DNA of 64,000 nucleotides from Anaerolineales bacterium. Lineage in GTDB: Bacteria; Chloroflexota; Anaerolineae; Anaerolineales; UBA4823. The translations under genes were made by a program, and so were the position numbers. Shown piece by piece: positions 21,521 through 33,600 of the stretch. The DNA is taken from contig PQAL01000002.1 of assembly GCA_003105035.1 (NCBI GenBank), forward strand, positions 62,001 through 126,000, read 5' to 3'. The notes below the pieces were generated by a model that had not been told where the DNA came from, did not search any database, and saw nothing but the letters and a program-made list of their open reading frames with translations. Every line of letters starts with the position of its first letter. Position 1 is the first letter of the stretch.

Positions 21521-21921
21521 GGCATCTCCTCTATATTTTGGTTGGTTATGGTTAAAAATGCCGCTCACGACAGGCATTGTGAAAAACGGTGATTCAGTGT
21601 GAGTGGTTAGAAATACTGATTTCTTCGCCCGTCCCCTGGTTTGATGTGCTTCATCCAATCACCCCAGACAACTAAAATAACGCATCCAGCTTCTCGATTG
21701 GAATCTTGCTTTCATCTCGCTTGTTACAACGAGCGAATTGTGTTTACCTTGTTCCCTGATTATTTTGATTATTTTAATCTCTTCCTAACAAATATGCAAG
21801 CTGGAGCGATTCCGGCGTATTGTCTGACTATTTCTCAAAGGAGCCACTGAATAACTCGATCCGGTGGATAGCTTAGCTGGTATGATAAAATTGTGCCCAC
21901 ACTATTTTAGGAGTTATATTA
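21521..21921. other. Divergent intergenic region between nuclease and DsbA-like gene
   Basis: About 400 bp without a credible gene. It contains an imperfect inverted repeat around 21718-21738 (TCGCTTGTT and AACGAGCGA, one wobble position) and a weak -10-like TATGAT about 45 nt before the rightward start, with GGAG shortly before the ATG at 21922. I see no consensus -35 partner. Confidence 0.3.
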
Positions 21922-22734
21922 ATGACAGACCAACCTCAAGGAGAAAAGCCCGCCCTGACTGTGGTGATCCAGTCATGGTGGACTCCCGCTCTGGCTGTGA
22001 TCATGCTGGTGGTTGGGTTGCTGGTCGGGTATTTCGGTCGCGGCATAATCAGCAAGAGCCCTGTGACCACCGGAGAAGTTGCTGCGGTGGCAACCACTGC
22101 ACCAACCCAGTCGGGAGTTCAGGTTTCGGTACCAACTCCTACCATCGATCCAACGATTGCGGCCTTCAAAACCCGTGATGATTTAATGGCTTATGTCGTC
22201 AGTAAAACGAATCATTTCATGGGTAACGCAAACGCTCCCGTAACGCTGATCGAATTTAGCGATTATCAATGACCCTACTGTGGGCAATTTGCCACTGACG
22301 CGGGTCGTCAGCTCATAAAAGATTATGTCGATACGGGTAAAGTACGCTTCGGATATTTTCCATTTACATTCCTTGGGGATGAATCATTTTGGGCAGCTGA
22401 AGCAGCTGAGTGCGCAGGTGACCAAGATGCTTATTGGGAATTTCATGATTATCTATTCAGCCACCAAAACGGCGAGAATCAAGGGGCTTTCAGCCAGGAT
22501 AATCTGAAGCAGTTCGCGGCTGACCTTGATTTAGATACAAAGGCCTTCAACGAGTGCTTCGATTCTGGGAAGTACTCCCAGCTGATCCAGGATCAGTCTC
22601 AGATTGCATCTGTCATTGGGGTATCAAGCACTCCCACTTTTATCCTTAATGGGCGGGGAATGCAGACACTATCCTTTGATGACTTTAAGCAAGCCATTGA
22701 AGCCATTATTAATCCAGTCACTCCGACCCCATAG
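21922..22734 (+). CDS. Membrane-anchored DsbA-family thiol oxidoreductase, selenocysteine-containing (UGA recoded)
   Basis: A 270-residue thioredoxin-fold protein read through an in-frame TGA at 22270-22272 (residue 117). Before it: one N-terminal membrane segment (PALAVIMLVVGLLVGYFG), a Thr/Pro linker and GNANAPVTLIEFSDYQ. After it the frame continues for 153 codons with PYCGQFATDAG, the helical insertion, and the cis-proline motif SSTPTFILNG before the C-terminus. The TGA falls exactly where the family has the first Cys of FSDYQCPYC, giving U-P-Y-C. A SECIS-like hairpin (22295-22311) lies within the coding sequence. It should be an extracytoplasmic disulfide oxidase or reductase with an unusually reactive nucleophile. 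Annotation software would call a 116-residue truncated protein or a pseudogene. The frame, motif position and hairpin are seen; selenocysteine insertion is inferred. Confidence 0.85.
22295..22311 (+). promoter_or_regulatory. Candidate bacterial SECIS element of the DsbA-like gene
   Basis: Hairpin CTGACG / CGTCAG (6 bp) with the 5-nt loop CGGGT. The loop begins 28 nt after the UGA, within the usual range for bacterial SECIS elements, and has a G in the first two loop positions as the family model expects. The stem is entirely within the DsbA reading frame. Confidence 0.65.
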
Positions 22735-22758: not shown

Positions 22759-22790
22759 CGAGCAGGTGCCAGCCACCTGCTCGCTCTCTT
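22759..22790 (+). terminator. Rho-independent terminator after the DsbA-like gene
   Basis: Stem CGAGCAGGTG / CACCTGCTCG with loop CCAGC, followed by CTCTCTTTT. It lies 25 nt after the readthrough stop codon TAG, not after the internal UGA, which supports the longer reading of the gene. Confidence 0.8.
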
Positions 22791-30605: not shown

Positions 30606-33600
30606 CTATGGGTTCAAGATCCCGGGAACCACCGGTTCAACCGCTAATGCCCCGATCATCTCATTGACGATTTGCTGGTCATCGAAATGGATCAGGGAGA
30701 TGGCCTTGTCTCGACAAGTAGCTGCACAAGTGCCGCAACCTTTACACAGGTATGTATTGACGGAAGCCACACTTTCCTTTAGCTCAATGGCGCCATAAGG
30801 GCAAGCCGTGATGCACAGACCACAGCCTGCACAGCGCAGCAAATTCACATTTGCCACAGATGGGTCCAGGGCGATGGTGCCCTGGTCAAGCAAGGAAAGT
30901 GCAGCCGCAGCGGCCCCTCCAGCCTGGGCAACACTATCGGGGATGTCCTTGGGGCTCTGGCAGGCTCCTGCTACGTATATGCCTTCTGTGGAGGTCTCCA
31001 CCGGCGCCAGCTTGGGGTGCTTCTCCAGGAAGAAACCATCCGGACTGCGACTAATTCCAAACAGACTGGCTACCTGAGCGGAATCCTCCTGAGCTTCAAA
31101 GCCGGTGGACAAGATGACCATATCCACATCAATATGATCCGGCTGGCCGTAGAAGGCTTCATCCCACTTGACCACCAGGTGCCCATCCTGGCGCTGGATG
31201 CTCTTCACCCGCCCGTGATAGAAGTTCACGCCTTTTTTGCGAGTACGGTTATAAAACTCTTCATAGTCTTTACCAAAGGTGCGCATGTCGCGGTAAATCT
31301 CGTGCACCTCGGCATCCACATAATCGTGGACCAGCTGGGCGAGTTTAAGCGAGTACATGCAGCAGGCGCGTGAGCAATACTCGTTGTATTTTTCATCCCT
31401 GCTGCCGACGCAGTGTACAATTGCCACGCTTCTCGGAGAGCGGCCGTTTTTTAGGGTTACTTTGCCACTGGTTGGTCCACTGGCATTAATCAATCGCTCG
31501 AATTCCATGGAAGTCAGCACGTTATCCAGCTGGCCATAGCCCAACTCGGGCATGCGGGCGGGGTCAAAGTCTTTAAAGCCAGTCGCCAGGACGATTGTGC
31601 CTACCGTCAGGTCCAGATGACTGTCTTTCATATCATGGTTGATCGCCCCTCTCTCACAGGCTGACAGACACTCCAGGCATTCGGAGCAGATGCCACAGCG
31701 CAGGCAGCGCTCGGCTTCAGCTAGGGCTTCTTCCTCGGTGAGGGCAAGATCAACTTCTCTGAAGTTGTTGACTCGCTTCTCCGCGGGTATTGTGTGGGTC
31801 TTGGCGCGCGGGATATCAGCCGCCCAGCCGATTTCCATCTTTTGCAGCACCTCTTCCTTTGTGAAAGTGGCTGTAGGCAGCCGGGGTGGTTCCTGGATAC
31901 CTTCTGCGCCACGCAGGTAACGGTCAATGCAGCGGGCTACGTGGTGACCTTCGCCAATTGCATCCACCACGAAGAAGGTCGTACCGCGCCTGACGTCTCC
32001 AGCCACGAAAACTCCCGGCATGGCAGTCATCATCTCGTCATCTGTTTCGAGGCCCATTGAGCTGAGCTTGCGGATCATGGTGCCTTCAGGCAGGAAAGCG
32101 AAATCCGGCTGCTGGCCGACCGCCCAGATCACCAGGTCACATGGGATGACATGCTCAGTCCCGGGGATCTCCTCAACCTGGCGCTTGCCGTTGACGATGC
32201 CGCCAACCTTAGCTTCCACGCATCCGATCCCGATGATCTTCCCGGACCATATGACGACCTCCTTAAATACCCGGTTGCGGATGATTTCAATACCTTCCTT
32301 ATTCGCTTCATCGATCTCATTGAATGAGGCCCGCATGCCTCGACATACGATCTTTACCTTGGGGCTGCCCAGGCGCACAGAGACACGCGCAGCATCCAAA
32401 GCCACGTCGCCAGCGCCAATCACGGCAATATCACGCCCGCTCAGGTCAATTTTCTCCCCCAGGCAGGCCCTGCGTAACAGGTCCAGGCTCAGCCAGTTAT
32501 CGGGGTGTTCAGCACCCGGAAGATTGAGCTTCCAGGCGCTGTGCGCACCCGTGGCAATCACCACTGAGTCAAAACCCTGTTTGAACAGTCCGGGGATATC
32601 ATAGATGCGGGTGCTGAGGCGCATCTCCACGCCCTCATCGATGATCTGTTGGATTTCCCAATCCAGGCGGTCATAAGGTAGCCGGTGGGGTGGGATACCC
32701 ACCCGCATCATACCGCCGGCAATGGGTAGCGAATCAAAGACTGTGGCGTGATGGCCGATGCGCGTCAGGTCAAGGGCTGCGGTCATCCCAGCCGGACCAG
32801 CCCCGATGATGGCAATATTCTTGCCGGTGGGGGTTGGCTTGTGGGAGAAAGGTGTGCCGACCAGGGATTTGTCGCGCATGTTGGGCAGCTCATGACGGTG
32901 GGCAAAAGCCCAATCCGCCACAAACCACTTCAGCTTCATGATGCTTACCGGCTCGTCGTACATACCCCGGCTGCACTGCTCTTCGCAACGCCGGTTACAC
33001 ACCCGCCCGCAAACGGAAGGGAAGGGATGCTCGCGGCGGATGGCCCAATATGCATCCGCGTAGCGTTTCTGCTTGATCAGAGCGATATACCCCTGAGCAC
33101 GCTGATCTGTTGGACAGGCTGCCCGACAGGGTGCGATGCCTTGTTTTTCAATGACATAGGCTCCAGGCACTGCCTGGGCAGAATGCCGGTAGGTAGCCTT
33201 GCGGGTGCTTAACCCCTTATCAAATGTATTGATCACGTCCACCGGGCATACTTCGGCGCATTTTCCACAGCCAGTACACTGTGTTTCATCCACAAAGCGT
33301 GCCTTGCGGCGAACCCTCACCTGGTAATTCCCCACATACCCGGAGACTTTTTCTACTTCGCTGTAGCTGAGCAGGCTGATGTTTTCGTGGCGTCCAACGG
33401 ACACCATTTTGGGTGTGAGTATTCAGGCCGCACAGTCGAGCGTTGGGAAGGTCTTATACAGTTGGGCCATGTGCCCGCCAATACTTGGCTCACGCTCAAC
33501 CATGTAAACCTTTTTGCCAGCATCAGCCAGGCGCAGGGCTGCTTCGATCCCGGCGATACCTCCGCCCACCACCAGCGCTGATTGTTGCATATCCACCGAG

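Follow-up and report, generated by a model that had tools for sequence, protein, structure and literature searches.

A predicted membrane-anchored DsbA-like selenoprotein with selenocysteine at the nucleophile position in an Anaerolineales genome

Known UxxC selenoproteins and the protein encoded in the window

DsbA-like and DsbG-like selenoproteins with a UxxC motif were listed in the Sargasso Sea set of 2005 (PMC1088965) and in a survey of 2006 (PMC1794560). The DsbA-like kind was counted in 41 organisms (45 genes) in 2016 (PMC5029168), and both kinds appear in the table of a 2026 review, where the Rcas_1661 family is entered as DsbG-like (PMC13188914). The gene described here lies at 21922-22734 (+) of a 64,000-nucleotide stretch of DNA from an Anaerolineales bacterium (the window). 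Its predicted product resembles the DsbA-like entries in having selenocysteine (Sec) as the first residue of UxxC within a DsbA domain (PMC1088965, PMC5029168), these listings being broad and the likeness one of description, not of sequence. It is therefore a member of an already known selenoprotein kind, arguably forming a membrane-anchored sister clade or subfamily. The reading of the gene as a Sec-DsbA in an earlier note on this DNA is supported, but the novelty attached to it there is weakened, the kind itself having been listed from 2005 to 2026.

The NCBIfam model NF041057 (Rcas_1661 family thioredoxin-like (seleno)lipoprotein) matches the window protein with 154.3 bits, under its curated equivalog cut-off of 190 bits; all 44 aligned proteins match this model, and no other in NCBIfam, at E<=1e-20. 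The family shares with the window protein a DsbA/DsbG fold, a UxxC or CxxC motif, export and the occurrence of both Sec and Cys members, but it is a lipoprotein family, whereas the window protein is anchored by a transmembrane helix (residues 20-43) with no lipobox seen. A literature search found no paper on Rcas_1661. The earlier note had expected standard annotation to miss the selenoprotein. The standard code would yield a 116-residue fragment, and with the only curated selenoprotein model to give a match the score is under the cut-off.

In the read-through protein, Pfam recognises PF13462 (Thioredoxin_4, 5.3e-40) and PF01323 (DSBA, 1.7e-14), which together cover residues 95-261 (22204-22704). 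The AlphaFold2 (AF2) model (mean pLDDT 87.8) consists of an N-terminal helix (residues 20-43, encoded at 21979-22050, a hydrophobic stretch in the translation), a low-confidence linker and a confident DsbA domain, and contains the features that define DsbA/Thioredoxin_4 proteins, namely a DsbA domain with helical insertion, a [CU]xxC motif and a cis-proline. Among PDB structures, Foldseek ranks BdbD of Bacillus subtilis first (3eu4; 28% identity across 175 columns, TM 0.84 by target length), and the other best matches are DsbA proteins as well, several of them from Gram-positive bacteria. BdbD is likewise a membrane-linked DsbA of the Gram-positive type, but it has Cys where the window protein would have Sec, and it is a known oxidase, whereas the role of the window protein is predicted only. 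Because the N-terminal region of the translation lacks a lipobox Cys, the most probable arrangement is an N-in enzyme anchored in the membrane and facing the outside of the cell; fold and anchor emerge from comparison of sequences, and from them we infer this topology. Two further cysteines, C164 and C212, are invariant in 44/44 aligned proteins and may form a structural disulfide.

A recoded reading frame and its hairpin

The frame opens with an ATG, preceded at a distance of 8 nt by a Shine-Dalgarno-like AGGAG (21909-21913), and runs through 116 codons to a TGA at 22270-22272, then through another 153 codons to a TAG at 22732-22734, giving a protein of 270 amino acids when TGA is translated as Sec. 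This is the only internal TGA, and it falls exactly on the first Cys codon of the DsbA CPYC motif, so that the motif reads EFSDYQ-U-PYC. Translation and orthologue comparison place Sec117 at the nucleophile position, followed by the resolving Cys120 (22279-22281), which is invariant in the 44-row alignment, as are Thr237 and Pro238 of the cis-proline loop (22630-22635). A strong intrinsic terminator (22759-22783) lies beyond the distal TAG. The earlier note's description of the locus was accurate in these respects, that is, a TGA replacing the first Cys of FSDYQCPYC, 153 codons of DsbA fold after it (confirmed by translation, Pfam and AF2), the cis-proline loop and a terminator past the distal stop.

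Searches covering family, phylum and order recovered 16 further orthologues, about 45-57% identical, which share the TGA at this codon and come from other genomes, most of them belonging to different genera (L012-L015, L017, L018, L071, L073, L100-L103, L105, L106, L108, L109). There are also many Cys relatives, as the note had proposed to look for, with TGC or TGT at the site; the in-frame TGA thus aligns with a Cys of homologues and is kept as TGA or Cys. Downstream of the TGA, the identities at the three codon positions are 0.785/0.755/0.444, which indicates protein-coding constraint, and this constraint together with the recurrence of the codon in 16 more orthologues argues that the TGA is not there by chance. 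In a tree from which the Sec column and the residues encoded by the SECIS were left out, Sec and Cys members fall in one clade (support 99/98) with nine state changes, at least two of which are forced by well-supported branches. The root and the direction of change are not resolved by this tree; the simplest reading of the sequences is a shared origin of Sec followed by repeated conversion to Cys. The clade of the window selenoprotein looks undescribed. A TAG reported within the relative L019 lies elsewhere than the Sec site, which in L019 is TGT.

A SECIS-like hairpin, CTGACG-CGGGT-CGTCAG, is located at 22295-22311 (folded within 22292-22314), 22 nt past the UGA and with G in its apical loop. 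In the form CTGRCG-loop-CGYCAG, at +25 to +41 from the TGA, all six pairs form in 17/17 Sec genes, as opposed to 0/19 Cys relatives. Among the latter, L019 retains five pairs and L074 three, with much of the same sequence, and these partial stems look like remnants of the hairpin. When each protein was recoded synonymously, any one gene reached complete pairing in just 2-5% of draws, chances that must not be multiplied across the 17 Sec genes, which are related by descent. Covariation is modest, as only stem pair 4 varies (G-C 7, G-U 6, A-U 4). Support for the hairpin is comparative and not single-sequence: taken singly, it is not unusual against shuffled sequences (z about -1). The earlier note had pointed to folding of 22270-22320; the hairpin that comparison supports, at 22295-22311, differs from the minimum-energy fold of that interval (z -1.1). 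The latter places the TGA within a stem whose lower part, by inspection, is not kept in orthologues, and it was set aside in favour of 22295-22311.

Selenocysteine machinery and alternative meanings of the TGA

The genome that contains the window encodes SelA (556 bits), SelB (over cut-off in a profile search), SelD (364 bits) and a tRNA-Sec (72.6 bits) with anticodon TCA (UCA in RNA), the complete set by which bacterial users of Sec are recognised, so that a lack of Sec machinery, which the earlier note had named as refuting, is ruled out. The SelD gene (L009, contig C25) also contains an in-frame TGA, and SelD, too, is probably a selenoprotein. Co-occurrence with SelB within the family was considered as a line of evidence and discarded, because SelB is so common (over cut-off in 30/38 family genomes) that it does not discriminate.

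On sequence evidence, the gene almost certainly encodes a membrane-anchored DsbA-like selenoprotein with Sec at the nucleophile position, a confidence that refers to this statement and not to the redox direction. We consider it very improbable that the gene is a pseudogene or the product of a sequencing error, with a Cys codon mutated or misread and two dead halves left behind. In favour of such a lesion, the lone TGA is one base away from TGC or TGT and the assembly is in 43 contigs, but 16 other genomes carry the same TGA, the hairpin and the coding constraint past the TGA are kept, and the distal terminator and full Sec machinery are present. Just as little credence can be given to a general recoding of TGA as another residue, or to readthrough by a near-cognate tRNA. 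The frame would also be open with TGA read as Trp or Cys; however, every Cys-type relative has Cys here, the genome has tRNA-Sec and SelB, and TGA is not generally reassigned, since it terminates 15/44 long open frames in the window; it also terminates some of the orthologues themselves.

In the selenoprotein reading, the UGA at 22270 would be decoded in vivo by SelB and tRNA-Sec(UCA) with the hairpin at 22295-22311 acting as a bacterial SECIS, and translation would pass on to the TAG at 22732. The product would be an extracytoplasmic, membrane-anchored thiol-disulfide oxidoreductase of DsbA fold (U117-P-Y-C120), whose selenolate would attack or receive a substrate disulfide, leaving a mixed selenenylsulfide for Cys120 to resolve, so that its function would be thiol-selenol exchange outside the membrane.

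Redox role, neighbourhood and other Sec-DsbA proteins

In the window, the gene is flanked by a divergent nuclease-like gene (named by eye) and an alanine racemase, with neither CcdA nor rhodanese beside it. In relatives, a membrane rhodanese and a CcdA-like protein (PF02683) are often found upstream, a ResA-like thioredoxin and an Lgt-like protein often downstream, and cytochrome c, DUF3105 and PCYCGC proteins nearby. L012 bridges the two arrangements: the rhodanese lies upstream of its gene and the alanine racemase seen in the window lies downstream. A search of the window's genome yielded no rhodanese resembling the one in L012. This genome does encode a CcdA (contig C36), adjoining L,D-transpeptidase-like and DUF2085-like homologues of the relatives' neighbours (judged by eye), and a Trx-VKOR fusion protein (contig C3).

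Given the CcdA, rhodanese and ResA-like neighbours in relatives and the CcdA of its own genome, we lean, at about even chances, towards the Sec-DsbA being a fast reductase or isomerase recharged via a CcdA-type membrane conduit. As the window gene adjoins neither CcdA nor rhodanese, its redox partner is a guess from the neighbourhoods of relatives, and the direction of the reaction and the substrates are likewise inferred. We regard as possible, and as less likely than the CcdA-coupled reductase or isomerase, that the selenoprotein is an oxidase of the BdbD/DsbA type recharged by the Trx-VKOR fusion: among solved structures the oxidase BdbD comes nearest in fold and a Trx-VKOR protein is encoded on C3, but selenenylsulfides are as a rule more reducing than disulfides, and in relatives the gene adjoins CcdA, rhodanese and ResA-like proteins, with no VKOR noted in these neighbourhoods.

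Other Sec-DsbA proteins were observed. A second selenoprotein of the same genome (L043:757-2043 (+), contig C5) is a lipoprotein that joins a Sec-DsbA domain (UPYC) and a cyclophilin PPIase (PF00160, 150.6 bits). Fourteen other loci (relatives L045 and L049-L061) share the position of its TGA, the hairpin is of a different type (TTGCNCC-CGTGNT-GGNGCAA, with compensatory pairs), and no paper on such a fusion was found in a literature search. Eight other DsbA-like loci (L044, L047, L048, L081, L085, L088, L095, L098) have TGA at the nucleophile codon within UPYC, UPAC, UINC or UPGC, most of them with a hairpin past it; judging by these sequences, the phylum seems to carry Sec-DsbA in multiple paralogues. 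A named Chloroflexi relative (L042) and the Roseiflexus-type name of NF041057 also point to Chloroflexota as this phylum. Elsewhere in the window, an identical stretch of 25 codons around a TGA (LYKTFPTLDCAA, TGA, ILTPKMVSVGRH) occurs twice on the minus strand, at 33425 and 35437, about 2 kb apart, which suggests a duplication.

Tentatively, the clade might represent a reductive, Sec-based extracytoplasmic branch of DsbA proteins, recharged by CcdA and linked to the membrane rhodanese and the ResA-like protein (cytochrome c, copper or sulfur maturation), which with the Sec-DsbA-cyclophilin fusions of the same genomes would make up a multi-enzyme selenium-dependent folding system outside the cell. 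The clade also offers a clean natural series for studying how Sec and Cys replace each other in an exported thiol enzyme, as the switch between the two states goes along with presence or absence of the SECIS hairpin (16/16 in one clade).
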